A stretch of 64,000 nucleotides of DNA. Origin: Apoda limacodes. Taxonomy: Eukaryota; Arthropoda; Insecta; Lepidoptera; Limacodidae. The position numbers were made by a program, and so were the translations under genes. Below, piece by piece: positions 207 through 52,173 of this stretch (its first letter is position 1; each line of letters begins with the position of its first letter). The DNA lies in assembly GCA_946406115.1 (NCBI GenBank), contig OX291542.1, positions 3,868,959 through 3,932,958 of the forward strand. Direction: 5' to 3'. Below the pieces are notes generated by a model that was given only the letters and a program-made list of their open reading frames with translations, had not been told where the DNA came from and did not search any database.

Positions 207-3200
207 TCAGGACTTTTTATTATTTGCCAAATCAACGACAGCTTTGACCACATCTGAAAAAAACATAAATAAATATATTAAGGTTAAAACTTTTTTTTTA
301 TACATAATGAACGTTTCCATCACTAAGTTTTACTTTATATTTTAATTAAAAAAAAAAATCAGAATTAAGCGGCGTTTTTGGATACATGAGATTTGGCAAT
401 AAATAAATCTACAATTTTTTTAATAATTTTCAATATCTTGCTGTATTTATATAACAATTTATGTATTAATTTTTTTATTTTAGATCGTGTACTAAGCCTG
501 CGCCGTCTGTCTGTCTGTCTGTTCAACGGTATAACTTTGCTGCCGAACTTTTCGTAGATTAAAATTTATAAAAAAAAAAATCATCTATACCGTTTAAATT
601 GCAAAATGATTGACTATTTTAGTAGGCGTTTTATTAATTTTGTATCATAAGATTTAGTTTTAAATGGTGCTACAGAGCTCTTAGTTCGCGATTCCGACTC
701 GAGCTTGCCTGTTTAAATCTAGATAAATCTTCGTTCACATTTTTTAATAGCTCTCTATGTTCGAATAGACAACTTTATAATGCTCTTTTTAACACTTTCT
801 GAATTATGCTATAGCTAATACTTCTGGGATTTAAGTCTCCAACCAATCCGAACAAGGCACACACTATGCTTAAATAAACTGTAGCCCAAATTGCCTTTGC
901 CCGGTGCTCTATAATACTATATTATACTATAATATAATCTTACTAATATTACAAATGCATTAGTTTGTGAGTTAGTATGTTTACAAATTAAACAACAACA
1001 ATTAAACCGATTTTGGTGAAATTTTAAATAAATTAACTTTAAAATAAACCTTAAAAAAAGGTTTAGGCTTTTATATTTTTCCGGAAAATTCACAAGGCCC
1101 CTCAGGAATATTTATAACCTGATTCATATAGCTAAAGCTATTTTCCTCACTATAATAAAGGTATTGGCGTAATATATAAATATATGCTCTATATATTTAA
1201 ATATTTTCACTTACCTCCATATGCGTAACCAAATACAGCCATCTGAAAGTTAAATGGAAAGGTAAGAAATTTCCTTTTTATTAGTTATCTGAAATCAAAG
1301 TCAAAGTCAAAGTCAAAATGGTTTATTCAAATAAGGATTTTACAATCACTTTTGAATCGTCAAAGTTATAAAATATTATTTTTTGAACCCTCCCACCTTC
1401 CCGCCGGTTCACAATGTTGTTGATTTCTACCGAGAAGAATCCGGCAAGAAACTCGATAGTTACTCTTTTAAAAACACTATCAATAATACAAATAAACTAA
1501 AATACAATTAATGTTTTAATCCTTATACAAATGTTGGTAACAAGATTACAAGGATAGGCAAGAAATTAGAAAATCGGCCAAGTGCGAGTTGGACTCGCGC
1601 ACGAAGGGTTTCGTACCATTATCTATATAAACGGCAAAAAAACTCACGTTCGTTGTATGGGAGCCCCCCTTAAATATTTGTTTTATTTCAATAAAAGTGA
1701 CTATACAGGAAGACTTTGAATTGAGGCTTCAAATTTCTTGAAGTTATTCTTTGTGTATACAAGATTATTCAGAGAACATCATATAATAAAATCAATAAAC
1801 TTTGTGATATTACTAAAAAAATATAAAACAATCAAAAGTATCAAATAAATAATTCTAAGTATCATCGTTACTTGTATGAATGAATAGGCAAATCGAAAGA
1901 AGCAAGCAGCCGGTGCGGGCCACTGACCTCACCCCGTGCTAAACAAGTGTTAAACGTAGTAGGCAGGTACTTTAATACCTACCTCAGTACCTACCTGCCT
2001 AGAAAATTTTTCATAACCAACTTTTCCTTCATACTTTACGGCTTAGGACGGTCAAAAATACGATAAGTAAAGTAAAATCCACTAATAAAGATTTAGGTAA
2101 TTAAAGTTTACTTATCATAAATATTTATGTACCTACCTATCGTATTTCTGGCGTCTTTAAAAAGTTTAAATCACAATATTTAAAAAATTGAATTCGGATT
2201 TAAAATAAGAAAAATAAACCAGTAAACTCACATTTGCATGTCCGTAAAAATTATGTGTATTTTAACAATTGCTTAAAATTACCACTTCCATTTTCCAAAC
2301 ACAACAAAGCACGACGTCGCAAATTTTTTTATAATTTTACGTAGCACAGCTGTTCGTGATTTAACCACTGCAAAAGCACTTACGATTTTGTCGTTTAATT
2401 TTTCAATTGGATTCACGTTTGTAAACAACCACAAATAAAAGTCTAGCGGGGTGAGATCTGGCGACCTTGCCGGCCATGATACGTGTCCACCTCGACCGAT
2501 CCACCGTTTGCCGAACTACCTGTGTTCGCACACACTTCACTGTAATAGTGAGCAAGGGCTCCGTCGTGTTGAGGGTGTATGTCGGCTAGATAGGACACTG
2601 GTACATCTTCCGACAATTCTGACACTATCGAGGATACCTTTCCCAGTTAACGTACGTACAACGTATGACGTAAGGCGGCGCGACACCGTGACCTGACTTT
2701 TGAGAACGTTTTCGGACGGCTGTTTAATTGTTTGTTTTGGTTTTTGCAAATGCGCGGGCGCGCTGGTGTGCGAGGGGAGGGTACAGGGTGGCCGGCCGGT
2801 AGAGACAATGCGGTGTGACAAAGTCGCAAAATTTTTAGGTACCTAAATTATTTAGATAAGCGAATGACCTAAAATACGCGTTGCCAATCTTCTTGCAAAA
2901 GTTCTATCTATGAGCATAAAATAGCTTGATACTTTAAATGTTTTATTTATTTTTTACAATTGTATTCATATTTAATTTTTATAAATTATTGATATTTTGA
3001 GTTTGCCTAAACACAATGAGTTGGTTTTTATCGTTTTAGTCGATAACGTCAGTTTTTTTTTTCATAATTTAAATTTGTGAATTAACCATTAAAAATTAAA
3101 GTACTTCTGATACAAAATCATATACAAAAATTTGAAGCCTCAATTCAAATTCATCCTGTATAGCTCAATATTCTGTCAATATTTTAAGCGTCTGCCGGTT

Positions 3201-6200: not shown

Positions 6201-7990
6201 CAGTAAATAGTGAAAAATTTATAATGTGGGTAATAATAGGCGCAAGAGACTCCAGTATTGTAACAATCATATAACGAGTTATTTCATTCCATCGTACAGC
6301 TTTAGATTTGATGGAATGTATTATTTTGACTACATCTTCTTGATTAACAGGATTGAATTTAAATTTTTTTTGTGTCAGTATTCATGTTTGGAACCGACGT
6401 AAAATGATTATTTAGCTCATCAAGCGAAAAAGGAGTTAATTTTCTAAGCTAACATTTGGTTTTCCAGCTCCAATAGAACGTAGAAACTTCCATAAAGAAT
6501 TGGGCGTGGAATCAGATATATAACTATGTATGTATAGACCTTTAACTGTACGTATCATTACTCCATATTATTTCAGTGCGATCTTTTTTGAACTTACGAA
6601 AGGCACGATCTCTTTGGGACATAGCTATGCGAATGTCGTTAGTCATTCAAAGTGCTGAAGGGTGTTTCAGTTTAACTTTGTGCAATGGAGCATGTTTGTC
6701 ATAAAGTGCGATTACAGAATTATTTAATATCGCAACTTTCTCGTCAATATCATCAGCAACTAACACCGGAGTCCAGTCTATTTCGGCCGCGTCTATCACT
6801 AATTTTTCTACGTCCATTCGGGAAAAAGCACGAAGATATAAGACCTTTGGACAAGGCTTTGGAGGCTTAATATTGTAGGATAAGTATAGTAGGTTATGCC
6901 GAGAAAATCCAGGAGCTAAAAATTGTCCATATGAAGTAACGTGATCCTCAGAAGAGATAAGGATTAAGTCAATCCATGTGTCATCAGTGTCAATTTTATG
7001 ATGAGTAGGTGTTAGCGGAAGATTTGCAAAATTGACAGAGTCTATTATTAATAAAAGATGGCTAGAACGCAGCGATTTACTCTTGCACATATCAGTGTTA
7101 AAATCACCCATAATTATGTGATGGCTGTATTCAGAAGTAATGAATTCTAAGACCTTCTCGAAATCAGAGAAATAGTCAATTAAAGGCGGACAGTAAACTA
7201 TTCCAAGGAGGGCTTTAATGCCTTTGACAGTGATTTCAAGAATTATATACTTAGCCGAAGCCGAGTATGCTGAATTCGAAGATGTAATCTGTCGAAAAGA
7301 TATCTCACTACGTAAATAAATTGCTACACCTCCTCCACCTTTACCTATGCGGTCATTGCGAATTGCTACGAATCCAGGAAGAGAGAACATAGCGTTAGGT
7401 AGACACGGCTTACCACGTTTCCGATACCAACACGGCATGTACAGTAGTAGTGGAAAAAACTTCTAAGAATTCAGAGTAATGTTTAGGCAGGCATTTAATG
7501 AAACAAATAAATCATCAGTCAGCAACATGTTAATAAATAAAATGAATGGTAATATATATATATATGTAATTTATATTATACTTATTAATTTATTTTATAT
7601 TTAAAAAATATTAATTTGTCGAATGTTTTTCTGCATTATCTTTTAGATAAATTATCTGTTTGAGTCAGAAATAATTACTAAAAACTCAAGTAAATTACTA
7701 TCATACAACTATTTTCAGTATATTAGGATATTTTTTTCGATTGTTTCTCGATTAACAGTCATAGGAATAGTCCTTGATACTATATTTTTGCTAATTTACT
7801 TGAAACCCTACAATATGCTTTTTTATTTTGACACACTCGACAAGTGTCATTCAAATAAGAGCTGGTTACAGAAATCGTCATTTTAATTAAGTGGTGGTGG
7901 TGGATATACTTTTAAAGTTTAAAAAAAGTTGTTAAGTTGTGTTCCACTTACCAGCAAAAAGAAGCAAAACAGGAATAAAGAGGAGTTCAT
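207..7990 (-). CDS. Gene D: 37-aa secreted peptide precursor (3 exons)
   Basis: Exons are 7990-7952, 1242-1215 and 253-207. Exon 1 encodes MNSSLFLFCFFLL and ends in phase 0 before GTAAGT. Exon 2 encodes MAVFGYAYG and ends in phase 1 before GTAAGT. Exon 3, after TTTTTTTCAG, encodes DVVKAVVDLANNKKS and a stop. The first 22 residues form a signal peptide with an AYG cleavage-like end, leaving a mature peptide of about 15 residues with an amphipathic pattern. The gene is a clear paralog of gene E, with the same exon sizes, phases and near-identical residues. The gene is in three pieces because intron 1 is 6.7 kb and holds a mariner-like element, a hAT MITE and a LINE. Phase agreement across all three exons and the match to E make chance assembly very unlikely. 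Function is not known; secretion is inferred from the signal peptide. Confidence 0.85.
1296..1470. repeat. LINE-type 3' tail fragment with TCAAAG repeats
   Basis: A short run of AAAGTC repeats is followed by a block with CCGAGAAGAATCCGGCAAG. The same kind of block (antisense, cttgccgg...cttctc) recurs near 50010 and 40360. It looks like a truncated non-LTR retrotransposon 3' end. It lies in intron 1 of gene D. Confidence 0.55.
1704..3160. mobile_element. Degenerate mariner-like DNA transposon with 33-bp TIRs
   Basis: The element begins TACAGGAAGAC and ends with the inverted equivalent CCTGTA. The TIRs (1704-1736 and 3128-3160) match at 31 of 33 positions. A TA dinucleotide flanks each end (1702-1703 and 3161-3162), as expected of the Tc1/mariner superfamily. 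Inside, on the minus strand around 2660-2443, is a broken DDE-transposase segment with HDGALAHYY, followed out of frame by residues resembling RW(I)GRGG and ARSPDL-type blocks. It has frameshifts and no intact frame. It inserted into an older repeat within gene D intron 1. Confidence 0.8.
2443..2660 (-). pseudogene. Transposase remnant (DDE, mariner-like)
   Basis: The translation includes LSEDVPVSYLADIHPQHDG, then ALAHYY, matching the second catalytic Asp region of mariner-type transposases. After a frame change the GRW-type and PARSPDL-like positions can be followed. Only about a quarter of a transposase is recognisable, so it is inactive. Confidence 0.55.
3413..3578. mobile_element. hAT-type MITE (foldback, 166 bp) with 8-bp TSD
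   Basis: The element is almost one long hairpin. The left arm starts CAGTGGCGGCTCGTGACAAT and the right arm ends with GAGCCACCCCTG. It starts with CAG and ends with CTG. Both sides carry the exact 8-bp target duplication GTCTGAAC (3405-3412 and 3579-3586), which is the hAT signature. It has no coding capacity. Confidence 0.9.
3840..4260. other. GC-rich island of unknown origin
   Basis: This stretch is much richer in G and C than its surroundings and has a small hairpin near 3990-4010 (CTCGCTATCCGGACAGCGAG). An open frame of 111 codons crosses it, but it has no recognisable domain. The end (near 4205-4275) resembles 46606-46660, including GTAATGACA..GTTTA.GAGTA, so it is more likely a transposon 3' region than a gene. 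Confidence 0.4.
4507..7445 (-). mobile_element. Non-LTR retrotransposon (Jockey/CR1-like), degraded
   Basis: The element reads on the minus strand. Residues with GKGGGGVAIYL, then IIMGDFNTD (7438-6647), are an apurinic endonuclease domain. Reverse transcriptase blocks follow at 6270-5878 (FRPISILPFLSKVLE, FQSGFRPGRST, LVDFTNAFNTVD) and 5723-5448 (HLYGDDLQLY, the catalytic Asp pair in a YGDD variant of the usual YADD). The C-terminal conserved region lies at 5358-4825 (PIIDYADVCYLD). The minus-strand 3' end is an A-rich TAAA-repeat tail near 4507-4550. Several frameshifts and stops separate the blocks, so it cannot be active. Jockey versus CR1 clade is not settled from reading alone. It sits in intron 1 of gene D, in the same orientation as the gene. 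Confidence 0.85.
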
Positions 7991-8040: not shown

Positions 8041-8449
8041 TGATAACAAATATTTTGCGGTGAAAATTTATACTAAAAATTCAGTGACGTAAATTAGTAA
8101 GTATTATAAGTAAATAAAATAACATTATAGTACTAAGCCAATTTGTTAGGTTTAAACCTAACAAAATAAATTGAACTGACGTCGATACAGGTACTCTTTG
8201 AATGATATTTTTGTTCTCTTTCAAAAATATATTTCCATATGTGCCTATGAACAAATCAATGTTAAATTGGCGCTCATAATCTTTAGACTGTAATGCTTTT
8301 CTGTATAAGTAAATAAATGTGTTTTCACAATAAAGGTACAGTTCGAGTTTGAATTATAAATGACAATCCACATTCATTTGTGTGGAAAATATAAATTTAG
8401 AATAGTGTTCCAGTTGTTAAACGACTGGTGATGGATTTTCTAAAGTTTC

Positions 8450-8821: not shown

Positions 8822-9178
8822 CCTGTATGTAGTCAACAAGTCGCACGCTCAGAGGTACTTACCTATTTGTATGTCTGCATGTAGTCAACAAGTCGCACGC
8901 TCAGAGGTACTTACCTATTTGTATGTCTGCATGTAGTCAACAAGTCGCACGCTCAGAGGTACTTACCTATTTGTATGTCTGCATGTAGTCAACAAGTCGC
9001 ACGCTCAGAGGTACTTACCTATTTGTATGTCTGCATGTAGTCAACAAGTCGCACGCTCAGAGGTACTTACCTATTTGTATGTCTGCATGTAGTCAACAAG
9101 TCGCACGCTCAGAGGTACTTACCTATTTGTATGTCTGTATGTAGTTTACAAGTCGCACGCTCTGAGAGAGGTACTTAC
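8822..9178. repeat. 52-bp minisatellite, about 6.8 copies
   Basis: The unit runs GTACTTACCTATTTGTATGT, then CTGCATGTAGTCAACAAGTC and GCACGCTCAGAG. Internal copies are nearly identical and the last one has diverged. A single-copy version is visible (inverted) near 33860-33910 within the same repeat family, so the array expanded here. Confidence 0.95.
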
Positions 9179-10217: not shown

Positions 10218-10430
10218 CTTACCTATTTATATGTCTGCATGTATTCAACAAGTCGCACGCTCAGAGGTACTTACCTATTTGTATACTGCATGTAGTCAAC
10301 AAGTCGCACGCTCAGAGGTACTAACCTATTTGTATACTGCATGTAGTCAACAAGTCGCACGCTCAGAGGTACTTACCTACTGCATGTAGTCAACAAGTCG
10401 CACGCTCCGAGGTACTTACCTATTTTTGCG
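10218..10430. repeat. 52-bp minisatellite, right part with shortened units
   Basis: The same unit as 8822-9178 resumes after the insertion, with about four copies of unequal length (missing GTCTG or the TATTTGTAT part). The two halves show that the insertion at 9181 split one array. Confidence 0.9.
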
Positions 10431-13140: not shown

Positions 13141-13146
13141 TATAAA
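13141..13146 (+). promoter_or_regulatory. TATA box of gene E
   Basis: AGTATAAATT lies about 80 bases upstream of the ATG. Transcription would be expected to start near 13170, giving a short 5' UTR. Confidence 0.6.
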
Positions 13147-13224
13147 TTGCCGATGTAATCCAAATCGAAATCAAATTTAAAACAACTATCGTCTTAAGTA
13201 CCTATTTCGAATATTTTTTGAAAA

Positions 13225-15743
13225 ATGAATTCATCGTTGTTTCTGTTTTGTTTGGTTGTGTTGGTAAGTTAATCAAGTGTTTAAGTCAATTAAGTTAGTC
13301 ATGTCATACTTAAATAATGACTACTACAGTTACGTACGTGACTTTAGCTGTAATGTAAATTTAATTTCTGGTAGAGTATTGGCGTAAAAAAATAAGAAGA
13401 AATAGTGTTAACTTTTGCCTTTTTACTTTTTAGTTTTGAGAGAGAAACGATTCGCGGCGCCTCGCAGCGTGCTTCATACAAATGGATTTCCCACTTGTTT
13501 TTGACATTTACTGATCAATTACTGTAAAAAATTTTAGACAGGATATCAAGCCGGCTGTATATGTCTGTGGTTATCCAAAATCGCAAAAAAATGTTTTCAT
13601 TAAGTTGTAATCTTATTTGAGACCATTTGTATGAAAAACTAGAATCTTGTAAAACTTTCAAATTATACAATTAAACAAAAAACTGTCACGATGCGATGCA
13701 CTAGATATTTATTCCTAGATCACTTGTTTAAAATTTTATGGTATTTGAATGGTAAGTGACAAAAATAAGTGGGAAATTAGTTTGTATGAAACACATTTAT
13801 ATTCATTTTCATTTAGAATAACGTACTATATAAAAAAGATTATTGAAACATATAAATCTGGGAGATATCTTTACAAGCATATTATTTAGTTAAAAATTGA
13901 AACCATTACTTAACTTAAACCCAAGCTTGTTATTTGTTAAATTCTAAAATAAAATATCATTAATAATTAAAATAAAAAGTTTTGTTTAAAATCAATCTCA
14001 CCTCATATTTTATTTTCAGATGGCCGTAGTCGGTTCCGCGTACGGAGGTAAGTAAAATTCTGCAACTAAGCAGACTACTACATTCCACATAGCATGGTGC
14101 AGATGATACGAGAGTTTTTACGAAATTGCACATTTGGCAAAGATTTAGGAAGGATGTAATGAACATTTCTGTTTGTTTTCAGTCCCAGTGTTTTCTGAAT
14201 TTTATATGTTTTCACAAAAAAAGGGTAATTTTTTTTTTAGAAAACACCGAGATTGAACAAACACAAATGATCATTACATTTAATTTTTGGTGCGAAAATC
14301 GAAACCGGGCTATCAGTTTCGGGGGCAGGATAACACTTAATTGAGCTACACAGCAGTCATAAACATATGATAACCTATCACTGCGATTTCGGGCAAAATC
14401 AAGTGGGAGTTGGTTTAAGTAATATATTGAATTCTATGCCGGCGAAACCGCAGGATTAAAATTAAGATTAACTTTATTTGGATCCTTTTAGTTTACTTTA
14501 TTATTAATCCATGTATATACTTGCGAAGTGTCTCGGTTTACTTTATTCTTATAACTTACAAGTATACATAGCCACTAGAAGCTCATCCCAGATTACTTTA
14601 TTATCTTATACAACTCCTAGTGACTTTTAAAGTCCCAGTACACAGAGAGAAAATATATTGTTCGAATTAAAAACCTGCGTAAATACTAAATTTTATTAAT
14701 TGCAACAATTTTTTTTTTCTGGATATTACAAAACAATATTATTTTAAGTACATTTTATTTATTCCATAAACTAATAACTACAAAATAGTTTTATTACTTT
14801 CCGAAAATAATAATTTGTACTTCGGATTACAAAATTTTACAAATCCTATAAAACTTTTCTCAAATTTATGAGTAGGGTAATTAATATCAACATATAAAGC
14901 TTACTAAAGATTACAAAAAGTTTTATTAAAGTGGAAATATTAAACAGTACTTGTATTTACAGTGAAAGCCAATTAACGTTTACAAACACCTTTCTAAGAA
15001 TTAGTGAAATTTACTAATAACCAAATATCATATCGTGCCGCAACGAATCAAGGTTGACGTCACGCGTCCTACATCACGCTATTAAAGTTTCCTCGGTAGT
15101 TCGTATATATACAAACCGAATCGCAAGTAAAGTGGACCAAAGCGTACTCCAGGCATAACTCCTGACCTGGCAGGGAATTCCTTATTACCGCCGCTTCACA
15201 GTTAGTGACCATAAGCTGAACAAATTTGACGCGTCTTCCGCGGCAGCCCTTCATCACTTCAGCCCAGGTACACGAACTAGGTGTCAACCGTACGCTTCGC
15301 ATCACAGAGGTTCATCAGGAGCTATCGGTGTAATTAACGCTTTAATTACACCGAATAAAGTGTGTTACGTTATTTCATTCCAATGAGTTTAACTTGCTTT
15401 TAGTAAACAACACTGTAATTCCAACAAAACTAGTTTCATTTCGGTTAGCAAATACAATAAGTAAAACTCATTGGTAACCGTCAGTGTTATTTACGTGTCC
15501 TCTGAGTTACTAATATTTTAGTGATTACTTTAGTATTATTTACTTGTGTCTACTAAAGTTTTTTTCTCCGTGTACATAAATCTTACAAACACACAAAATC
15601 CTCATATATAAAAAAATGCATATAGAATATCGGAAAGTTCATTTTGTATAAAAACAATGATGGAGTTTAAACTTAATACATACATTTTTGTTATTCCAGA
15701 TGTGGTGAAAGTCGTCGCCAACGCGTTAAATAATGGACACTAA
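13225..15743 (+). CDS. Gene E: 36-aa secreted peptide precursor (3 exons)
   Basis: Exons are 13225-13263, 14020-14047 and 15700-15743. Exon 1 encodes MNSSLFLFCLVVL and ends in phase 0 at TTG|GTAAGT. Exon 2, after TATTTTCAG, encodes MAVVGSAYG and ends in phase 1 before GTAAGT. Exon 3, after TTATTCCAG, encodes DVVKVVANALNNGH and TAA. The first 22 residues look like a signal peptide and the mature peptide would be only 14 residues (VV..VV..AL spacing, amphipathic). A TATA box lies upstream and AATAAA about 95 bases after the stop. The exon sizes, phases and sequence match gene D on the opposite strand, forming a head-to-head pair. Intron 2 holds a TIR element (14638-15575). I do not recognise the family; the peptide might be structural, antimicrobial or signalling. 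Confidence 0.88.
14638..15575. mobile_element. TIR element in gene E intron 2 (non-autonomous)
   Basis: The left end GTACACAGAGAGAAAATA and the inverted right end TTTTTTCTCCGTGTAC form imperfect terminal inverted repeats about 940 bp apart. Near 15329-15356 is a separate short perfect hairpin (CGGTGTAATTAA arms). No transposase is visible, so superfamily cannot be assigned. Confidence 0.5.
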
Positions 15744-23081: not shown

Positions 23082-26000
23082 TTATCTTCCTAGCCCCAGG
23101 GTTTCGGCGATTTTACCAAAAAAGTCTGTAAAGTAAAAACGTAATTATAAATTAAAATATTATTAATTGTAATCGCATGAAAGCGACACTTAATTGTGTA
23201 AGTTTAAGTTTTTATTGAATTAATCACAAAAAGTAAACAAAGAAATCGTTTGAATCGACATTATTTACCTTTTCCTGAATCTTTTGATCCACCTGAAATA
23301 AAAAAGCGTAAAATTATAAAAAAAGCTTTTCAATTTTGACAGAAACTCAGAAACTCTAAATGTTTTTGCTATACCACTTTAGCTATTGGTTTTCTAAAAA
23401 CGTTGCAAAAAGTTTGGTACTACATACATACAAAAATATCAGATATTCCAAACGAATTTGGCATACAAAGACGATATTCTTAATTTTCTATTTCATAGCC
23501 ATAGAGTATCATTTGTTACTTCAAAAATGACGGAATTTTATACTAACTTTTAACCTCTAATTGTATGATTATGGGAACACATGGTGCTTTGTACCGCAAC
23601 GGGGCCGCGCCTTACGCACAAAACAAACGCAACCTGTTTTTTGTTTTCTGGCAACACTCAACTCTGTGGTTTTCATTAGTCTACAGAATTAAAATAACTT
23701 ATTTTTCTCTCAGAAAAGTGTTTTGATTTTATACATTTAATTCAAAATTACGCTTGTATAAAAGTGTAAGTGCCAGTTACATTATAGTAAGGACAAAATT
23801 TTGGACTCAGGTTGTGTTTTTCTATTTGCATTATAATATTTTAGACAGATTGACTTGGTCCATAGAGATACAACAATAGTATTGAATTGAGGTAAGTAAA
23901 CTTGTTCCTTTCAATTGTACCTGTCATCATTTTTTCTAGCACAAAAGCGCTATACGTTACGGCACACTAAATTACCTTATATATTTTTTTTTTGCATCGC
24001 CCGTGTTCCTGCAGTCTTAGTGTGGTCTATACAGAGACAATAGAAAGAGACCTAATGCTTTGGTATGGGTTGTGACTTGTGTTGACACTTTTCTTTTTAA
24101 ATTCAGAATTCTTTGAACTTATATTATTATATGAGTCTTCGATATATATAACCATAAAGTCTAGTCTACTAATCCTGGAGCGGCTACCGAGGAAGGATAG
24201 CTGCGTAAGCGTCGCCAATATTCGTTTTTACTTAATTAGGGGGGGGGGGGCGCTTGTTGTGTGTTAGTCACCGACTTATTTTTGCTTCCGGTGACTTAAG
24301 GCAGTTTTTTCTTTGCTCAACGGTTTAGTTGAAGAGGTAACGGTACGTATGTAGATTGGACGAGGTATTTTTTTAAGAAGACAAATTGCCTTTTTGTGGC
24401 TTTTGGCATTTATTGGTTTAATTCAGCATTTATTTTTATTATCATTAATTTTAAAGGTACCTAGGTATTTTAATTTGGAGTAATACTTATTTATTAATCG
24501 ATTTAATTTTAGAAAACAAGAATCTTTCTTAATAATTCAATAATATAAAAAAATATCTCATATACAATAAGGTTTTATATAAGACTAACTTCAAATTAAA
24601 TAAATGAATGGTTGCAGAGGTTAGTCATCATCTGACAGTAAAAATTCTAAGCTAATTTAGGACGATAAAGGTGAATATAATATATATGTGTGTATGTGTG
24701 TATGTATCAACCCGATAGTTTAGCTCTAAATTAAATAGTATTGTTATTGTTGCAACATCTGCTTTACTTTCACTAATATTTTAAAAATAAAAACAAACCA
24801 AGTGCGAGTCGGACTCGAGCACCGACGGATCCCACAGAACTAACACTATTAGCGTTTTAAGTTTAAAGCTTGTATGTATTACCGTTTTTACGATAGACCA
24901 AAAACCACAACATTTTTCTTGTACGGAAACCCCTTAATTTTTTTTTATTATTTGTAAGGAATTCTGGTAAAGTAACAATACGTATTCTCTCAAAATGTCA
25001 AGCTTTTACCTACTTTAGCTTAAAAGATAGATTGCTCTTTAAAAGTCGAATAGACAGATAGCGTATCGAGACCTATTACCAAAGTAGGTCCTTTTAGTAC
25101 GGAGCCGTAAACGTTGGGTCCAATCAAGTTATGCGTCGCAAATAAAAAGAACACAAACCTGCTTTATCACCTCCACTTCCACCTATATAAAAATTCTCAG
25201 ATTAATTTAGTTTTTAAAAAAACCGGCCAAGTGCGAGTTGGACTCGCGCACCGAGGGTTCCGTACCTACCACCATTTATGTAATCTACAAACACAAACAG
25301 AAATATTTTTATATTTCAGTTGATTGAATGAAAGGTAAATTGCGGTTTACGATTTATGACGTTTTAGAAAAAAACTACTTACTAGATTAAACGAGTTCAA
25401 ACAAATTTTCGGTGGAAGGTTTTATAGTAATGTACATCATATATTTTTTTTAGTTTTATCATTCTCTTATTTTAGAAGTTACAGGGGGCGGGGACACACA
25501 TTTTACCACTTTGGAAGTTTAAAAAAATGTTTAGTTTGATGAAAAAAAAATTTTTGAGTTTCAGTTCTAAGTATGGGGAACCCCAAAAATTAATTGTTTT
25601 TTTTCTATTTTAGTGTGAAAATCTTAATGCGGTTCACAGAATACATTTACTTACCAAGTTTCAACAGTATAAGTCTTAGAGTTTCGGAAAAAAGTGGCTG
25701 TGACATACGGATGGACAGACAGACAGACACGACGAATCTATAAGGGTTCCGTTTTTTGCCATTTGGCTACGGAACCCTTAAAAAACGACTTATGTTGATT
25801 AAAAATTTAAAAAACTTAAAAGCATGTTTTCTTTATCACTTACATTAAAAAAAAAAATTAAATATGTAAAAATCGTACAAAAATAATAATTGAGATACAA
25901 AACGTAAGAATTGAAGTAACCAAACTATTACAAAAATAAAAAAATTTATACGTACCACCCTTGCCTTTGTCTTTATTGCCTGGAAAATAAAACCAAATTA

Positions 26001-28452: not shown

Positions 28453-28479
28453 AGAATAGCCTCTAACTTCTGGCAACTA

Positions 28480-28485
28480 TTTATA
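28480..28485 (-). promoter_or_regulatory. TATA box of gene A
   Basis: AATATAAATAG on the minus strand, about 30 bases upstream of the start-site-like element and about 50 bases upstream of the ATG. Confidence 0.6.
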
Positions 28486-31347: not shown

Positions 31348-34300
31348 TTAGTACAGGCACATCCTCGTGTAACACTCAGCTACTGTAAAAGAACATAATA
31401 AGACTTAAAAACTTATATAGGATATTTTTTGCGTAGTAAAATTATGAAACTTATAAGAGATTAAAAGTACTTAGTATTCTTTTATTAAAAAAAAACTTGC
31501 TATGCTAAACTATGCTCCTCTAAATCTTGAACAGATTAGCTCATTTAAGTTTACGTTACATCGAAAAGAGATAGACACAGCTGTTTCTGACTGTGACTTT
31601 TAGCATATGCATGATGCGAAGAGCCACAGCTTACCTTTAACTAATTATAATTATGGAAGTCATTTAAATGACAGTTAGTTTATCTACAAGTCAGCGCTTG
31701 CATATCTATTGCTTTTATACTCACATCCTCTATGTTCCGTGGTTAAGAAGGCGATAATGGTAATAAACAGAGACACTGTTTACGAAATAAATGTTTTTAT
31801 ACACACTTTTTCATATCAACAAGGTGGCAAACAAGCTGATACCACAAAATAAGAAATAGTACGGTCCGCGTTATGTTAAACAAGCATCGTATCCTAAAGA
31901 CGATTTTTGTTAAAGTATTACTAACTTACCAATTTTTATATGTTGATTCAAAGTTTGTAATCCTACCCATTCAGTAGCTTTGCAAAAACATTGATTAAAC
32001 TACCTGCAAATCACAAAAACGTTTTTTTTATAAATTTTGTTAAAATAGTTTCTAAGATTGAAACAAAACATTTTTGGCATGAATTTGATTAAGATTGCAG
32101 TTGCTGCTTAAATCATCTAAAACAGATCGAGTAAAATCATCAAATACGTGCCTATTGCAAACCATAACGGTTTCACTAGTTTACAAATAAAATTACTAGT
32201 TCAGCCTTTTCCAAAACTTTGTGAGCAAAGCTGGTGAAAAAGCTATTAAACTTTACCTAAACGGCCATTGCTAAACGTAGGCTTATATTATTTCTTTCTT
32301 CTGCAACGCTTTTTGCCTTTTTTGGGCACCGGGTGCAAATTCATAGTAATTGCCTAGTTAGTTAGGAAAGCGTGAATAGGTGCGTGAGTATAGGGGCCTG
32401 ATTCTCGTGCTAATAGAGATAATCTCAAATTCGAGATACGTTTAATTGATTTACTCACGGCTTGTTAATCACGGTGACTGTTTTAGTCATGCATGCATGC
32501 AGCAACAGCCATGAGTTAATCAATTAAACATATCTTGAATTCGAGATTATCTCTTTCAGCACTAGAATCAGGCCCCAGGACACAAGTCAGGAGAATACTG
32601 TTTAAGCACTACTGCTGGTATACCGTCAGGTCTACTCGACTTATGAACGCCCAAAAAAAGCAACTCCAGCCGGATATCCCGCTGTGTTATGGAGATTTCC
32701 GACATGGTTTGACCACACCACGCTAAAATAGGTGGTACGGCGTCTTCGACGTTCAAATTCTATTTTGAGGCAAAGAGTCAAAGGCACCATCGATTTTCCA
32801 TCGGTAACGACGACTGGCAAAATTTTTCTTCGGCAGCTTTAGCATGTGATCAGAAAGTGCGACTCCCTGAGTCCTTGCAAGTCGCCCAAAAAACTACAAC
32901 TATAGTAAAACTTATTAATATCCATACGAGTATAAACAACAAAAAGTTGATAGATTACAGTAAATTAATGTCTTTGAAATTGTTTTATGGTTTCGGCATT
33001 TTTCACTTATCCTTTAGTAAATAGTTTTTCATGTGTTATTGTACTTACTACCATGGCCTTTTCCAGAACCGTCAGAGCCTTTAGTACCGCCAGGGTTGAC
33101 AGTACTTCCAGGTGTTTCGGTGCTCTCAGGTGTTCCAGTGCTTTGTGGTGTTCCAGTGCTTTGAGGTGTTCCAGTGCCACCAGTGCTCTCAGTACAACAA
33201 TCGTCTACAGTACATAGAATAAACTAATTAGGAGTAACAATTAAACAAGTAGTTTAACTTTCTAACACTATTAAATACAATATTTTTTTACATTATGATG
33301 TCTTCCGCCATAAAGACTGTAATTCTACAAATTTTAGGGACTATCGCTAGAACGTGGTCAAGGGTCATCTGTAATAAGAACCACAATGTATTTTATCAAA
33401 TCTAAATAAAATATGATTTTAAATTCTGTAAAAACAAACATAATAAAACCGTCCGAAAGAAGGAACCGTCCTTCTTGCTATTTTATACATTAGTGATCCG
33501 TTAATGACACTTTAATTTAATTTTTGATAGTATTGCATTAAAGGTAATGTTTTGTTTAATGTTATTTAATAGGTAATTTATTGTAGTTTGTTAAATTATT
33601 AAATACAACAAGAATAAATAAGTTTTAAGTATAATTTTTGTTCTAAGAATTTTAAAATTGGCATGGTGCAAATTCGGAACGCACATTAAAAAAAAAGACG
33701 AAGAAAAGAAACATTTATTTGGAATTATGTAGTAGATACATAATTTTCGTTGTTTTTACTATAAAAGTATTAGCTTTACCAAATATAATTAAAGTTAATA
33801 ATTAGAAAACATGAGTAACTCCACCACCTACTTAAAATACCTAAGTGTACCAGCGAAAAATAGGTAAGTATCTCTGAGCGTGCGATTTGTTGAAAAGGCG
33901 CTGAACCTATTTCAGAGACTAAAGTTTGTTTTTATCATGTTATTAACACTTAATTAAACTATTTAAATATTTTCCTCACTGTAGTGAGATGAAATTGTGT
34001 TTCGCACGGCTTGAATTTTTTTTGGGATTCATGTCTTAGAATCTCTCGCTTTGCTCGTGGGTTCAATCTTTAAAACCTTCAATTCAATATAGGCACTCAC
34101 GCTAAAAAGCAACTTTCTAGCCTTGCATAACAAATAACAATTTTTGACCGATCTGATTGCCAGACAACTATTAATATATTTACTGTATATTAAAAAACCA
34201 GACGTGTCGCGGGACACTCAGTGAGAACGATGTTCTTTACATTATGCATACATTATGTACTAGCTCAGTAAAAAACCTGATAAAAAAATGCACTAATAGA

Positions 34301-36791
34301 ATAAGACTTACGCTTGACGTTTTTTAGAAACGATACAAAATGTTTTTATTTGGATATTCACATTTAGTAAACAACCTTCTGTGCGCCAGTTCGATTTAAA
34401 CTTGACGTTCTTCCATTACTAAGCATGCAAAGTAAGCGGCCTTCTCTAAGGTTATCCCCATTCAAATTTTTATTAAAATCGGCTTAGCGATTTAATCAAA
34501 TTCTTGTTGAACTTGACTCGCACTTGTCATTTTTAAAATAGCTATGTCATTTTCCTCTCTCATAATTTTTTTTTTATAATTGGTTTAGCAGTTCAACCCT
34601 ATGTGTGCTAATTCAACTCACACTATTGATGCATTTAAGCTATTTGTTGCTACTAAGCAAGTAGTTGCTATTAATTAAGCTATTTTTAATTTATTTTTTA
34701 TTAAGTATGTTCAAGAAGGGTCAAAAATTTTAAGAAATATTCTATCAATAAAAAAACACACAGTATTGCTGCGACGTAAAAAAATCAGATACGTTTTATA
34801 GTCTAGTCTTCATTCGCCATTCGTCTAAACTGTAAAAAAAAAGGAACTTCGTTCCAAAAAATTTAACAAGAGTTTTAAATGTTAAAAGGAACAAATTTTT
34901 TAATATTCTGAAGCGAATAATTCGCTTACAGTCGCTCACCCATTCTACCAATAAATTCAAATTTAGCTAATAATTGTTACAATCTTTTTGTAGATTTATA
35001 ACAGTGAGTCACACGCGTTTTTAGTCTAATGCAAAGCAGGGTTTATCCAAATTCACCATTTTTTTATCCGTTATATTCGAAAAATTGCCGTTGAGCTATT
35101 TTTTGAAAAAAGGCCATGGTTGGCTTATTTCGAGTGAAGACCACCTATACCAATGTGATATGCAAGGGTGATACGGACCTGCAAAGTGGCTGAGAATTAG
35201 CTGTTTTTTATCCGTTGGTCAGACGTAAAGAAAAAGAATATGCCGTTGAGCCAGTTTTTAAAAAAAGGCTATGGTTGGCTTATTTCGTAAACTGATTTTA
35301 GGAATAAAAAAAAGAATATTATTATTATTTATTATTTCGAGGGAAGTTAGCCGGCCACCTATGCAAAATGTGATATGCAAGGTAGATACAGACCTGCAAA
35401 GTGGCTGAGAATTTGTCGTTTTTTATACGTTGTTCATACGTAATGTTTAAAAAATAGATAATAAGCTATTTTTTTAAAAAATGCTATTGTCGGCTAACTT
35501 CGAGGAAAGTTAGCCGGCCTTCCATGCAAAATACAATGGGCAAGGGTCATAGAGACCTGCGAAGTGGCTGCTAATTTGCCGTTTTTATTCGTTAGTCATA
35601 CGTTATCTTAATAAAAATTGCCGTTGAGCTAGTTTTTAAAAAACTCCGTATCAGCATTGAATATTTGCGTAGATGGCCGGCTGACTTTCTTCGATGTTAT
35701 AGCTGACCATGCCCTTTTTTTAAAGAATTACTCAATAGCAAATTGAACTAACTTCGAAAAAAATAGCTCAAAGGCAAATTTTTGATTATAACGGATAAAA
35801 AACGGCATACGGTATGCTAACTAGAGTAAGTAGAGTAAGAGTAACAGTAACAGACAGACAAACAGACAGAGTTACTTTCGCATTTATGATATTATTATGG
35901 ATTTTTAAACAAGGTTTAATCACTTACCACATTTACAGTAGATATTACTGACTAAGGCCAACTGAAAACAAATGTAAATGTTTTGTCATAAAAATTCATA
36001 TTGAAGAGTGTCGTCGATTAAAATTATATCATTGATTTACAAATATTACCACAATTCGATTTATGTCATCTTTGTTTCGATAAACAGGCTTATTTTTAAA
36101 ACTGTTACATATTATATATAATTATAATAAGAACGTCCTAAACTAAATAAATTATACAGCATGCTTTATCGCTTTATAATACTTTATTTATTTAAAAGGT
36201 CCAAAAACAATATATAATAATAGGGAAAATGTCTCGCTCTAAAAAATATGAAACAAAAAAATATTCTTTTTAGAATTTCAGACGAGTTCATTTACCATCT
36301 AGAATATAAAAGTGAGTATTTAACCACTAGAATGACAACACAGACCAGCAGACCGTAAAGGTAGATGTACAAAAGTGGACTACAAACTAACTGCTAAATA
36401 TGTTAAAATTAACTATACTATAATACAAACTATTATTAATGTTTTATAAGAAAAATTTAAACAAACATCCCCAGAGTATAAAACTCTAGGCTTTTACTTT
36501 GTCTTTTTTAATTTATTTGGTTGTACATTACCTTTCTTTGACTTAACGAAATAATTGTTACCAAGGTAATTTATGATGTACATCGATATCTATATCATAC
36601 AAGATTTTCGTTAGCAAATTAAAAACAGATACAAATGAGTATAAACTACTAATAATATGTATTACTGTATATTGTTACATGCACATTTTACTTTTTTTTC
36701 CTAAAACTTAGCTAAGTATTCCAAATAATCATAAAATAAAGTATTTCCTCACCAAGAAAACAGCACAAAGTAAAAATCTAATATTGACCAT
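31348..36791 (-). CDS. Gene B: 87-aa secreted Thr/Pro-rich, Cys-flanked protein
   Basis: Exons: 36791-36753 (MVNIRFLLCAVFL, phase 0, donor GTGAGG), 35961-35928 (LALVSNIYCKC, phase 1, GTAAGT), 33204-33049 (52 residues, phase 1, GTAAGT) and 31382-31348 ((I)AECYTRMCLY, stop). The first ~21 residues are a signal peptide. The mature protein begins near YCKCD, continues with DCCTE, then an STGTPQ/STGTPE-type repeat that is mucin-like and rich in possible O-glycosylation sites, a GTKGSDGSGKG linker, and a C-terminal Cys pair. Six cysteines, four before and two after the Thr/Pro repeat, could join the ends. The 18-bp coding repeat (STGTPQ) is itself a small minisatellite. An alternative donor 3 bases earlier in exon 3 keeps the frame. 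The plan matches genes A, C, D and E. A possible extra cassette exon lies at 31930-31977. Function is unknown. Confidence 0.8.
31930..31977 (-). CDS. Possible 48-nt cassette exon of gene B
   Basis: Between TTTTTGCAAAG and GTAAGTTAG is a 48-nt segment open in the gene B frame (phase 1 to phase 1) that would encode TTEWVGLQTLNQHIKI. The donor is strong and the acceptor weak. It could be a helical segment inserted before the final exon. This rests on splice-site reading only. Confidence 0.25.
32393..32576. mobile_element. Foldback MITE, 184 bp
   Basis: The arms GGGGCCTGATTCT / AGAATCAGGCCCC continue inwards with GAGATAATCTC on both sides. The middle has CATGCATGCATGC. No clear target duplication. 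It lies in intron 3 of gene B. Open frames across it are not genes. Confidence 0.8.
33820..34150. repeat. Dispersed repeat family, copy 3 (inverted)
   Basis: Read inverted it matches copy 1: GGTGGAGTTACTC, one unit of the 52-bp sequence (TCTGAGCGTGCGATTTGTTG), the CTGTAGTGAGATGAAA block and AAAAAGCAACTTTCTAGCCT. It shows that the element normally has one 52-bp unit. It lies in intron 2 of gene B. Confidence 0.65.
35030..35815. repeat. Degenerate tandem repeat, about 190 bp x4
   Basis: Recurring blocks are TTTTTTATCCGTT, GCCGTTGAGCTA, GGCTATGGTTGGCTTATTTC, GTTAGCCGGCC and CAAGGGTGATACGGACCTGC, then AAAGTGGCTGAGAATT. The last copy (35630-35815) is partly inverted. Open-frame evidence is absent. 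It lies in intron 2 of gene B. Confidence 0.75.
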
Positions 36792-36867: not shown

Positions 36868-36874
36868 TTTTATA
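36868..36874 (-). promoter_or_regulatory. TATA box of gene B
   Basis: CATATAAAAG on the minus strand, 23 bases upstream of the ACAGTTGAATTC element. Confidence 0.7.
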
Positions 36875-47560: not shown

Positions 47561-48325
47561 AATAAACTTGAGGGGAACTGGCAGAGCGCTAATGTTCTTT
47601 TTGGAGTTTGAGAATTTTTATTTTCTATGAAAGATTTTGAATATGAATCAAAGTTTCATCTCGCCGAAGTTCTTGAATATATGACACTTAATCGAATACT
47701 ATATTTTTTATACTATTTAAGACTAATTTAGCTATGAATTACAAAACAAGGGTTAAAAATATAGTGATTTTTTTAATTTTTTTTTCAATTAAATTTACTC
47801 AAATAATGTTTTTATTTCACCAACTAGATAATAGAACAAAAATATGAAAAAGATGTAAAGTATATAATATTGATGAATGTGCAGAGTGCTCAAAACTCAC
47901 AAAGGCTACAAGCCTTAGCCTTAAAGCCTTATAATACGGTAACTAACGCCACAATTACATGATTTTGATTTAAGTCTTTACATTATTAATTAAAAAAAAC
48001 CGGCTAAGTGAGTGACGTACATGCATTAAGTGTCGTTTCCGTAGAATAAGAATAATTGTGGATATCTACATAGCTTTTGAACCGGTTTTGTTCAAAGAAA
48101 TTTTGTTAGTAGTATTTATACTACTGTTATAAACCGTTACTAATATTTTAACATCTCGCGGTTAAAAAGTTAGAGGAAGGTCTCAATTCTTTTAAACTTT
48201 TAAAAATCTTCAGAAACTCAAATCCAATTTTAAAACCCTTTCCAATAATACCCCACATGATAGGTCTGTGAAAAATATTTATCCCTGTAGCAATAATTAA
48301 ATGAAGTCTTCAACTTACGTTTTGC

Positions 48326-51300
48326 TTATTTTGGGTGTCCTTTTAAAGCACTTAATATGGTGGCTTCAACATTGACAACACTACCTGAAAAATATAAAAA
48401 TAATTTAATTATAGAAGTATTCTTTGCTTCGTTTGAAATAAAAATATATTGATATCATAAAAACAGACTTAATCGAAATGCCTAGTTTTAGATGTGTTTT
48501 ATTAAATATAGACATTTTAACTGCCACCATTACCGGGTTGACCACCGTTCCCGGGCTGGCCACCGTTACTTGGTTGTCCACCATTACCGGGTTGACCACC
48601 GTTCCCGGGTTGACCACCGTTCCCGGGTTGTCCACCATTACCGGGTTGATCACCGTTCCCGGGCTGACCACCGTTACCTGGTTGTCCACTATTTCCGGGT
48701 TAACCTATTAAAATGGACTTAACATATATACGAGTATGTTACTGAAAACCGAAATGTTCCTTGATAGTTGGCTAAAGTTAATTAAAACCCAGTTCTGGCT
48801 GGGTAGACTTAATTGTAGCCGTATTTGGCTTTTAGCCGGTATGTATATAAATAATATTAAAATAGTTTATATTCGGTATATTAATAAAAAAATATTCGGT
48901 GGTTGGTTTGACTTGTGTGTTTTTGTTTGTCACGATTTAAACATGACCCGATTTTATTATTCGTTATTGTGCTTCAAAATTTAGTATACCATAATTCAAA
49001 GTTTAAAGCTAGTATGTACAATTCGAGCGAGTTAACATGACACTCTGGCTGCGTAAAGTCTATTCAATGAAGTGTGTGCAAAAAAATGGTTAGAGTAACT
49101 AAAAGGTGGAGCAAAGGATAATAACCGGACATGTTGGATAAATTTGTGGTGTCTCCATTACCATATATGTTGACGATAGGATAGGGTAGGGATAGAGTAT
49201 GTCATCGGCAGCAATGTTTGTACGGAGTACTCTTGACTGTGACCCTTCTCCGGACCCCTGGGAAGGTTCAAAATTTGGTTTAAAAGGGGTGTGTTCCAAT
49301 AACCTACCATTTTAATGATGCAAAACCGGTAGAGTGCATTGTCGCTAGCAACGTTTGTATAAAGCACTTTTCTCTGTGACCCCTCTCTAGACCCCTAAAT
49401 TTTTTTTTCAAAAGGGGGTGTGTCCCTGTTACCCCCCATTTTTGCCAGGAGCAACGTTTGCACGGCAATGTGTTCTATCGATACTCGTCAAAAGAATGGT
49501 TTTACAAACATAGGGACACACCTACTTATAAAAAAAAACAAATTCGATTTTTATTTGTGTTGTCTTAGAAACTTGATTATTATACAGTTCTAAGGCACAG
49601 TAGACCTTAGAATTTATTAATAATTTCAACTTAACCCTAGAATTCTATTCTAGTTTAGAGGTACATAAAGCTTTAACATACGTCTCGGAGCCGTACATAT
49701 ATAAATGACAATCTGTTGGCAAAAATATATTCAATCTTGTAACTATGCCCCAATAGAGGGGCCTTAGGACCATTTAGATATCCGAGGCACGTACTGATAG
49801 ATTCTGATGATGAAATAACCAGCAGGCTCAAAGCTCAAGCGCCTTCAGCGCTCGCGTCCGTAAACACAGATTATACAAATATATACAGAATACGTCGCAT
49901 TAGACAGTTTAGTTTTCACACACACACACACACACACTCGAGCGCGCGGGTATACTAGGTTCACTAATATACCCGGGCGCTTCGACTCGTTAGATTTAAA
50001 TAATAATAGGAGAGGGCTGAAGAGTTTCTTGCCGTTTCTTCTCTTCAGAACGCCTTTGCTATTTTCCGAAACGGCGGTAAATTTTAGTTAGATACGAATT
50101 TTAGTTTCTAAGAGCGGTTGCCTAAGCCGAGGTTCGTGTCTAGGACACCCTTGCGCAAACCGCCCCAACTTTTCGCTGAAGAGTGCAAGCAGTACCGCAG
50201 CAAAAGTTAGTCCGCGTGTAGTTGTAAAGGCCATCTGCGGCCAACAACAGTAGACAGTAGTTAGAAGAAGAGAGAAGGAAAAATATACTAACGTATATCC
50301 TATTTAAGTTTTGCATATTAACTAATAATAAATCCCATTTTTATCAATGAAAACTACAATCACAGTTATTTATTACAACAATATAAAAGAGCGTGCGTTC
50401 ATTAAAACTACAAAATCAATTCTCAGAAATCAACTAATATGTATATTTTAAGAGAAATCTTCACAGACACTTACTTTGTGCTCGCAACATACCTAATGTC
50501 TTTTCGCACTTATAACTTATAACATACTGATTTCGACATTATTTTTTTTGTAGAAACAAAAATTGCATTAGTTAAAAGTCACAGAAAGCGTAAACATACG
50601 TCTGGCAGGCGTGCTGCAAGTTAGTAAACATACGTCTGGCAGGCGTGCTGCAAGTTAGTAAACATACGTCTGGCAGGCGTGCTGCAAGTTAGTAAACATA
50701 CGTCTTGCACGCGTGCTGCAAGTTAGTAAACATACGTCTTGCACGCGTGCTGCAAGTTAGTAAACATACGTCTTGCACGCGTGCTGCAAGTTAGTAAACA
50801 TACGTCTTGCACGCGTGCTGCAAGTTAGTAAACATACGTCTTGCACGCGTGCTGCAAGTTAGTAAACATACGTCTTGCACGCGTGCTGCAAGTTAGTAAA
50901 CATACGTCTTGCACGCGTGCTGCAAGTTAGTTACTTAGTTGGGTAAATAGCGCGAGGTGCTTACTTCAAACGTCAGAAAGATATAAAAACTGTTCGAATG
51001 CGTGTAAGACTCGCAAGTGTAGACAAGGCTTTAGGGTTAATACTTCCACGAGTATCTAAGAAGTATCTGCGCGTATCTACTACACGCATAAACTTAGGGA
51101 TTATATAAGAAATATATGCGTGTACTTACTGCACGCATTAACTTAGGGTATATATAATAAGTATCTGCGTGTACCTACTGCACGCATTAACATAGGAAAT
51201 ATATAAGATGTATCTGCGTGAACCTACTGCACGCATTAACTTAGGGTAAATATATATAAGAAGTATCTGCGTGTACCTACTGCACGCATTAACTTAGGGT

Positions 51301-52173
51301 ATATATATATAAGAAGTATCTGCGTGTACCTACTGCACGCATTAACTTAGGGTATATATATAAGAAGTATCTGCGTGTACCTACTGCACTTTACATTTAT
51401 TTACAAAAAAAAATATATAAAAGTATTTGTATCAGTTGCAAAGCTTTGCTGAGTTTAGGACAGATGGCGCTGTGTGTAATGTAGGAATATTTTTTAAAAT
51501 AATTTTAAAATACATAAAAAATACCTTACCCTTATCTGAACCGTCGCAGTAGATTTCACTTACAAAAGCCACCTGAAACAAAAATATTTATTTAAACAAT
51601 AACTAGTTAAAATTGTGCTCTAAAAGCATGCGAAAATTAACTCCCAGCCGAGTTGTGCGTTTATAGGAAGTTAATAATATTCTACCCGAACATTGTTATA
51701 GATACAGCATAATAGAGTTAAAATCGTCTGTTTCAGTTAACAATAATATTAGTTAAAACTGCCAACAAACAGGTCAATAAACTTTTCTGAACGGTGGTCA
51801 AAAATTAAAAGAACAGTCGCCATATTATAAATAAATACTTATACAACACTAGCGACCTTACAATGGTACAGAAAAGTTTGTTGCACTGTAGTTAGACATA
51901 CTGGATATTGTCCTAGGTCCACTGAATATCTGTTAAAAACTTCTAAAACAGTGTTTCCAACTACAAACCCTATAGGTGCATCATTTGTGGTTCAAATGAT
52001 TTTTTTCCATATCCATTTTTGGGGTTCCGTAGCTATTTTTACAATTAGATGGATCTTTAGGCACAACTGACAGTCGCACAGAAAAACAACGTAATATAAA
52101 AAAAAACAAAAATTAAAAAAATATAACTACATACCAACAAAACGAAGGCAAAAAGTGATACAGCTTTGTACAT
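48326..52173 (-). CDS. Gene C: secreted GQPGNG-repeat protein, repeat exon with a stop codon
   Basis: Exons: 52173-52135 (MYKAVSLFAFVLL, phase 0, donor GTATGT), 51572-51530 (VAFVSEIYCDGSDK, phase 1, GTAAGG), 48704-48534 (repeat exon, phase 1 both sides) and 48384-48326 ((G)SVVNVEATILSALKGHPK, stop). The signal peptide spans both first exons and ends near EIYC. The repeat exon has about nine 18-bp units coding GQPGNG. Its second codon is TAA where the repeat would have CAA (48702-48700), so translation through it would stop at once. The exon is 171 nt, so skipping it joins exons 2 and 4 in frame to a 46-residue product. Either the repeat exon has died, or it is a sequence error or variant, or skipping is normal. 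No canonical AATAAA is seen after the stop. The C-terminal helix-like segment resembles genes D and E. Function is unknown. Confidence 0.72.
48522..48704 (-). repeat. 18-bp coding minisatellite in gene C
   Basis: On the minus strand, units read GGTCAACCCGGGAACGGT with variants (GGTGGACAACCCGGTAAT). Synonymous changes (GGG/GGT, AAC/AAT) alternate between units while GQPGNG is kept in this frame only, which argues for past selection on the protein. The other frames that stay open here (VNPGTV-type) are shadows. Confidence 0.85.
49050..49510. repeat. Degenerate tandem repeat, about 130 bp x3
   Basis: Repeated parts are GGTGTGTTCCAATAACCTAC, GCAACGTTTG and CTGTGACCC.TCTC..GACCCC. It lies in intron 2 of gene C. 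Open frames of about 66-69 codons here are not supported as genes. Confidence 0.6.
49915..50075. repeat. (CA)n, GC-rich hairpin and LINE tail
   Basis: A (CA)10 run at 49917-49936 is followed by a hairpin (AGCGCGCGGGTATA pairing with TATACCCGGGCGCT, 49940-49982) and then the AGTTTCTTGCCGTTTCTTCTC block typical of LINE 3' regions. Confidence 0.65.
50589..50930. repeat. 34-bp minisatellite, 10 copies, with GCACGCGTGC palindrome
   Basis: Unit GTAAACATACGTCTTGCACG plus CGTGCTGCAAGTTA. The first three copies have CTGGCAGGCGTGC, the other seven CTTGCACGCGTGC, so two variants spread as blocks. TTGCA(CG)CGTGCTGCAAG is nearly self-complementary. In gene C intron 2. Confidence 0.95.
51040..51392. repeat. 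About 52-60 bp tandem repeat, 7 copies
   Basis: Units contain AAGAAGTATCTGCGTGTACC, TACTGCACGCATTAACTTAG and GGTATATATA with variable TA length. In gene C intron 2, about 100 bases from the 34-bp array. Confidence 0.9.

Follow-up and report, generated by a model that had tools for sequence, protein, structure and literature searches.

A clustered family of small secreted-protein genes with split signal peptides in the moth Apoda limacodes

Genes of the cluster

A 64-kb stretch of Apoda limacodes DNA (the window; contig OX291542.1, positions 3,868,959 to 3,932,958) was described in a preliminary analysis as carrying five dispersed genes for small secreted proteins, from left to right D, E, A, B and C. 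Each was said to begin with a signal peptide split between two exons, the first ending in phase 0 and the second in phase 1. We rebuilt the five loci from this description, leaving its exon list unused. Both strands of the window were analysed together with 200 kb upstream and 70 kb downstream of it, which makes 334 kb of chromosome. Positions outside the window are given on its own scale, and all gene models depend on a splice score of our own making.

Candidate first exons were defined as an ATG followed by 9-19 codons with hydrophobic end and good donor site, candidate second exons as exons of 21-75 nucleotides (nt) ending in phase 1. The first scan recovered all five first exons, with other candidates alongside. 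In the second scan the exon listed below was top-scoring for D, E, B and C and second-ranked for A. The split signal peptide is thus recovered at all five loci by an independent splice scan, with 13-14 codons and phase 0 for exon 1 and a phase-1 end for exon 2. The outer limits of the cluster in the window hold as well: the stop codon of D ends at 207 and the ATG of C lies at 52173. Joined models are free of stops and code for 37 (D), 36 (E), 59 (A), 89 (B) and, with its repeat array omitted, 46 (C) residues. Modelled coding exons measure 24-156 nt and none of them stands out in the list of open reading frames (ORFs), as had been remarked before. With every coding exon shorter than about 160 bases, a gene almost escapes ORF scans and is easily missed by automated annotation.

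D and E are arranged in opposite orientation. D (minus strand) consists of MNSSLFLFCFFLL (7952..7990, phase 0 donor GTAAGT), MAVFGYAYG (1215..1242) and the terminal exon DVVKAVVDLANNKKS with stop codon (207..253). E (plus strand) consists of MNSSLFLFCLVVL (13225..13263), MAVVGSAYG (14020..14047) and DVVKVVANALNNGH with stop codon (15700..15743). First exons of the two genes are 74% identical, second exons 79%. TATA boxes are located at 8066..8072 in D and 13141..13147 in E, 82 and 84 bases before the ATG, respectively. Both genes were modelled without a spacer between exon 2 and the last exon; a phase-1 spacer candidate in E (14183-14224, score 9.8) was omitted since D has no counterpart of it. 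The 6.7 kb first intron of D harbours a broken non-LTR (non-long terminal repeat) retroelement on the minus strand (4828-7462), pieces of which match Pfam endonuclease (6650-7462) and reverse transcriptase (5881-6381) models; only these pieces were scanned.

The remaining genes of the window lie on the minus strand. A starts with MLKIALIFCIVVVM (28388..28429) and LVMVTDVHGDGLLPL (26636..26681), and its TATA box (28479..28485) is found 56 bases before the ATG. Two spacer micro-exons of phase 1-1, GNKDKGKG (25956..25979) and GGSKDSGK (23269..23292), resemble each other and were the top and second internal candidates. The proposed last exon is DFFGKIAETLGLGR with stop codon (23082..23125). B is composed of MVNIRFLLCAVFL (36753..36791), LALVSNIYCKC (35928..35961), one Thr/Pro-rich spacer exon of phase 1-1 with 18-base GTPxST repeats (33049..33204) and the last exon (S)SLINVFAKLLNG with stop codon (31963..32003); its TATA box (36868..36874) precedes the ATG by 83 bases. 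C contains MYKAVSLFAFVLL (52135..52173), VAFVSEIYCDGSDK (51530..51572), a GQPGNG array (48517..48704) and the last exon GSVVNVEATILSALKGHPK with stop codon (48326..48384). Two overlapping TATA matches (52246..52254) start 81 and 79 bases before its ATG. Intron 2 of C holds two further tandem arrays, at 50590-50931 (unit 34 bases) and 51053-51389 (unit 49 bases).

All five loci are present, but membership of the cluster extends further, to at least seven genes and a less well supported eighth, G. Paralogs F and H are located 0.9-11 kb beyond the right edge of the window. F (exons at 67445-67407, 65816-65774, 65474-65394 and 64989-64931) is built of MAKAISLFAFVLL, LAFVSEINCNAPNR, a spacer beginning with GQPETRNNG and GHVVNIEAILLSTLGGHKN, with the translation MAKAISLFAFVLLLAFVSEINCNAPNRGQPETRNNGAQPKNDVQTGKGGGSDGLGHVVNIEAILLSTLGGHKN. 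H (74775-74737, 72205-72163, 71099-70995 and 70690-70638; 79 residues) is built of MAKTVYLFSFILL, VAFISDVYCATAYR, a spacer beginning with SGSGGSSGTTT and DDGGNVIGIFAHLLNNS.

Occurrence of split signal peptides and promoter layout

Short hydrophobic stretches behind an ATG, combined with splice-like sites, might be assembled by eye anywhere in AT-rich DNA. Single tiny exons hold little information, and the terminal-exon scan alone returned 1144 candidates in the whole region. Pairs of exon 1 and exon 2 under strict thresholds, however, number 11 in the 334 kb; 20 order-2 Markov sequences, each as long as this region, gave 0, 1 or 3, with a mean of 0.35. This excess is somewhat flattered, since the window genes were already known when thresholds were set. 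Nine of the 11 pairs, identified by score, are the five window genes, F and three upstream neighbours, U1, U2 and U3. The other two lie at -92891 and -46791, and their downstream exons could not be resolved. H and a further neighbour, N, surfaced only under looser thresholds, and the first exon of G came via a sequence match. Along with these Markov controls, similarity of D and E that is limited to exons and frame-specific constraint (see below) make an origin of the whole pattern by chance extremely unlikely; for D and E it is already contradicted. Sequence analysis supports a clustered family of genes for small secreted proteins, with common split-signal start and phase-1 symmetric middle exons.

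All seven family genes carry a TATA box. In A it lies at -56, in the other six (B, C, D, E, F and H) at -76 to -84. For comparison, a TATA box at -95 to -57 precedes 904 (8.4%) of the 10816 ATGs in the region. The seven TATA-bearing genes are not independent, given that C and F are recent copies. U1-U3 and N carry TATA boxes too, at -89 to -104. The common promoter layout is a direct result of computation, as are the paralogy of the genes and the coding constraint on D and E.

A shared tail and a variable spacer

According to the preliminary description, it looked as if one secretory chassis had taken on different cargo. Tails encoded by the last exons were compared. The last exons had been chosen, and splice thresholds set, after the candidates were seen; ranking of tails serves as a check on this choice. 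With D, E, C and F tails as seed, 1093 terminal-exon candidates in 314 kb (acceptor score at least 4.4, 11-25 residues) were scored. The held-out H and B tails ranked next, with 20.0 and 18.25, and the best unrelated candidate reached 13.25. A was outside the best 30.

In a leave-out test over the full 334 kb, each tail was compared with the six supported tails, itself and its close paralog excluded (E left out for D, D for E, F for C). The numbers of non-family candidates, out of 1136, that scored as well were 0 for E, H and B, 2 for C, 5 for F, 23 for D, 70 for G and 253 for A. Six of the seven tails are therefore related, and the last exons of D, E, B, C, F and H encode related peptides of about 12 residues. 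In outline, two bulky hydrophobic residues are followed by Asn/Gly/Lys, in most cases by one more hydrophobic residue, and then by a second hydrophobic patch; the end is often Leu-Leu-Asn. Cysteine is absent from all seven last exons. Since tails are related, unrelated cargo exons were rejected; the part that varies is the low-complexity spacer, which differs in sequence between A, B, F and H.

The tiny last exon reported for five loci is consequently upheld as a related tail in D, E, B and C. The last exon of A fails the check, and in another ranking it came at about 505 of 2284. Likewise, phase-1 symmetric low-complexity exons, ascribed to the loci in general, are modelled in A and B, while none is modelled in D and E and the array of C is broken.

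The leave-out result makes G, located upstream of the window (-17579 to -8655), a weaker lead to a family member. Its 13-codon first exon MKQIMFLFCLVFL at -8655 has a TATA box at -80. Further pieces are VASIDD followed by DSLIGFLLGLLRIRVEDEK at -17521, and its candidate tail is SLIGFLLGLL. The defined exon grammar, together with the tail profile, offers a route to finding such genes in other moth genomes.

Coding constraint and decay

D and E share similarity in their exons only. Comparison of the two genes by blastn gives three matches at E 0.01, with one exon inside each of them. Exons are 69-79% identical, whereas four 30-base intron samples show 30-50% (50% and 30% for the two from intron 1). 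Over 34 codons, 15 synonymous changes at 23.3 sites stand against 12 non-synonymous changes at 78.7 sites (Fisher P 7.7e-6). In two wrong frames P is 0.79 and 0.91. Since the change is mostly synonymous, and in the proposed frame only, D and E are protein-coding and constrained.

C presents a different case. Compared with their consensus, nine full units of its GQPGNG array have 1, 1 and 15 changes at codon positions 1, 2 and 3. This amounts to 15 synonymous and 2 non-synonymous codon differences, with 0 and 1 synonymous ones in the other two frames of the same strand. The array was translated in the past. In F, the homologous exon is open at its entry (GGT CAA); its acceptor is weak (3.9), its donor strong (5.9). 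In C, the homologous acceptor (4.1) leads into GGT TAA, so that codon 2 is a stop, and the array itself closes with a stop and lacks the donor of F. The array was therefore rejected as a plain internal exon, and GQPGNG repeats, proposed earlier as the mature part of C, are a doubtful component of its product. Alternative sites are an acceptor at 48677 with a score of 2.9 and donor-like sites within the array with scores of 2.2-3.1. Either the array exon is skipped, which gives the 46-residue protein, or C is damaged.

One may ask if the cluster consists mostly of decaying relics, descended from one duplicated ancestral gene, with only D and E functional and A, B, C, F and H unconstrained or broken. 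The stop and the lost donor in the spacer of C point in this direction. Divergence between C and F, over exons other than the array, is about 0.20 at both synonymous and non-synonymous sites, as would fit a relaxation of constraint. Over exons 1 and 2, B, C, F and H form six pairs, and significant constraint was seen in none of them (lowest P 0.064), nor was it seen in exon 1 of U1 and U3 (P 0.39); constraint is therefore established for D and E only. On the other hand, the modelled exons of A, B, F and H still have open frames and splice sites, the TATA boxes of these genes are kept, and units of the C array differ almost solely at synonymous sites. General decay thus appears improbable to us.

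Neighbouring genes and other elements

U1, U2 and U3, found 150-200 kb upstream, have a family-like start grammar with 12-codon first exon and exon 2 ending in AAQGWS or AASQGWS. Their last exon is GNAKGW or GNAKGWY. In between, an Asn/Gly/Asp-rich stretch is encoded; in U1 and U2 it was scored as a phase 1-1 exon, in U3 it is no more than an open frame. The three genes occupy -196031 to -193271, -175304 to -173604 and -149637 to -147841; U1 and U2 are near-identical inverted copies. N (-21856 to about -29800) has a split-signal start similar to that of U1-U3, followed by long Asn-rich exon candidates of sericin-like composition.

Several other elements were noted. An exon-like frame at -131865 to -131467 might complete a signal peptide (VVFLTFALAAYA) before turning into Gly/Gln-rich sequence; the 2.7 kb preceding it yielded no first exon. 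An exon of a DUF92 membrane protein gene at -81239 to -80817 (124.9 bits) is conserved and usable as a synteny landmark. DUF92 is the domain of TMEM19. No names of genes that serve as landmarks of sericin clusters were found in the main texts consulted, nor could the DUF92 gene be linked to such landmarks. Near the right end of the window, a Tc1-type transposase is encoded on the plus strand (61783-62765). Pfam DDE_3 and HTH_Tnp_Tc3_2 match within 61956-62765, and an overlapping frame from 61783, itself not scanned, looks like the start. Long tandem arrays are located at 8823-9166 (unit 52 bases), 10218-10425 (51) and 17972-18838 (29-198).

Possible function of the family

From this organization we infer splicing, tissue and the roles of spacer and tail. 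Each gene would combine a TATA promoter, a two-exon signal peptide, optional low-complexity spacer exons of phase 1-1 and a tiny, largely hydrophobic last exon. With all junctions after exon 2 in phase 1, the conserved tail would stay in frame whenever a spacer exon is gained, lost, repeated or skipped. In our models D and E have none, B, H and F one, and A two micro-exons. Once exported and freed of its signal peptide, the product would be a short and flexible chain, its tail either sticky or membrane-seeking. Water or sugar chains may be held by the spacer (Thr/Pro in B, Thr/Ser/Gly in H), and the tail may serve as an anchor to a surface or to other proteins.

Proteins of this layout could be minor components of an exocrine secretion, most likely a coating produced by larval silk or labial gland. 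We consider the chances of this reading about even. A coating or glue is suggested since the proteins are small and predicted to be secreted, with hydrophilic spacer and hydrophobic tail, and since the TATA-driven genes are clustered near Asn-rich repetitive secreted proteins. Start-grammar neighbours U1-U3 (Asn/Gly-rich) and N (Asn-rich) in the same region are counted in its favour, and so are weak matches of Pfam PF21827 New_glue to B (21.0 bits) and H (18.1 bits), although these stay under the gathering cut-off of 31.

Several points weigh against it. Nothing links the genes to silk gland. The last exon of A is unsupported as a family tail, the spacer-free model of E is a choice, and the spacer acceptor of F has a splice score of only 3.9. 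Divergence of C and F and lack of significant constraint in the pairs tested, U1/U3 included, belong here as well. Among 1915 word-sharing candidates of a protein collection, which may hold few insects, no homologous protein was found at E 1. The New_glue matches span signal peptide and Thr-rich spacer only, not the tail.

Alternatively, the products might be short linear defence peptides, secreted to haemolymph, to silk or from defensive glands. The tail would then be the active part, membrane-active or signalling, and the spacer a disposable propiece, with D, E and G as near-minimal precursors. Tails are indeed short and largely hydrophobic, and for E, B and A their helical moment is above most shuffles (P 0.003, 0.003 and 0.032). 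A C-terminal Gly or Gly-Arg can act as amidation signal; B ends in Gly and A in Gly-Arg. Tails of D, H, C and F, however, do not exceed shuffles at P 0.05 (0.10, 0.06, 0.15 and 0.46), so that three of seven do so in this measure of an amphipathic helix. Clear positive charge, the other mark of cationic amphipathic antimicrobial peptides, is lacking: the stretches tested carry 0 to +1, which argues against an antimicrobial peptide of the classical kind, and the last exon of H adds two Asp in front. A dibasic cleavage site before the tail occurs in none of the seven models. We regard defence peptides as rather unlikely.

By the same logic as for silk, a structural or adhesive secretion of another gland is conceivable, e.g. 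of the female colleterial gland, which makes egg glue, or of the accessory gland of males. Tandem families that evolve fast are frequent in these glands. The weak context of Asn-rich, sericin-like neighbours favours silk instead, and we find another gland a good deal less probable than a silk or labial-gland coating.

Whichever gland is involved, the genes could be described, tentatively, as an exon-cassette system with fixed signal module and fixed tail. Phase-1 micro-exons would be inserted, duplicated and expanded from within (micro-exons of A; 18-base GTPxST repeats of B; GQPGNG of C), tuning the middle from gene to gene and perhaps, where spacer exons are skipped, from transcript to transcript, with the frame of the tail kept safe. 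The same grammar would be reused by the Asn/Gly-rich GNAKGW set 150-200 kb away.

Comparison with known systems

For B, the only protein compared with solved structures, three matches were obtained, none of them meaningful (best E 0.18). The preliminary description noted that fibroin heavy chain also begins with a short exon. This likeness is superficial. In Yponomeuta, the H-fibroin gene has two exons, coding for 10 and 5753 residues (PMC9684489). Family genes have three or more exons of 24-156 nt, and kinship with fibroin heavy chain was therefore rejected.

Silk-coat genes of other moths are clustered and encode repetitive hydrophilic secreted proteins (PMC9745057, PMC9684489). Our family resembles lepidopteran sericins in being predicted as secreted, hydrophilic, repetitive and partly clustered (PMC9684489). 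In composition, it is neighbours U1-U3 and N that resemble the Asn-rich sericin 4 of Yponomeuta (PMC9684489). The seven family proteins, however, are 36-89 residues long, compared with 731-1595 for four Yponomeuta sericins (PMC9684489). Having no Cys, their last exons also have no CXCX motif, which is described for sericins (PMC9745057).

Size and exon number are closer to the short silk gland peptide SSP1 of Yponomeuta, with 58 residues encoded by 6 exons (PMC9684489). Both are very small proteins spread over many tiny exons. SSP1 differs in being Gln-rich (PMC9684489); its sequence was not compared with ours. Seroins, small silk proteins of modular build, combine a signal module with conserved blocks and a variable linker, and their mature forms have up to 250 residues (PMC6405961). 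Their linkers contain Pro, and of their modules A, B and C, the B modules are charged (PMC6405961). Such charged blocks were not seen, by eye, in family proteins. In a Pfam scan of eight proteins none reached a cut-off, the presence of a seroin model in Pfam being unchecked.

By architecture only, the nearest analogue would be the Drosophila glue genes Sgs3, Sgs7 and Sgs8. These form a tight cluster and have N- and C-terminal parts in common, with internal repeats in Sgs3 and none in Sgs7 and Sgs8 (PMC6352337). Their repeats evolve fast, and a phase 1 intron lies within the signal peptide (PMC6352337). Related ends, and repeats in some members only, are likewise found in the moth cluster, where B, F and H have a spacer and D and E do not; sequences of the two groups were not compared. 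Intron phase differs: in all seven models the signal peptide is interrupted after codon 13 or 14 in phase 0, and a second, phase 1 intron follows behind. Cysteine content differs as well. Sgs7 and Sgs8, of about 75 residues, are Cys-rich (12-14%; PMC6352337), whereas D and E have one Cys each, within the signal peptide, and Cys-free tails. On intron phase and Cys the family would thus fall outside Sgs, while the working analogy stands. If the moth genes indeed encode gland products, they would represent an independent lepidopteran counterpart of fly glue genes, with conserved ends and freely evolving middles.

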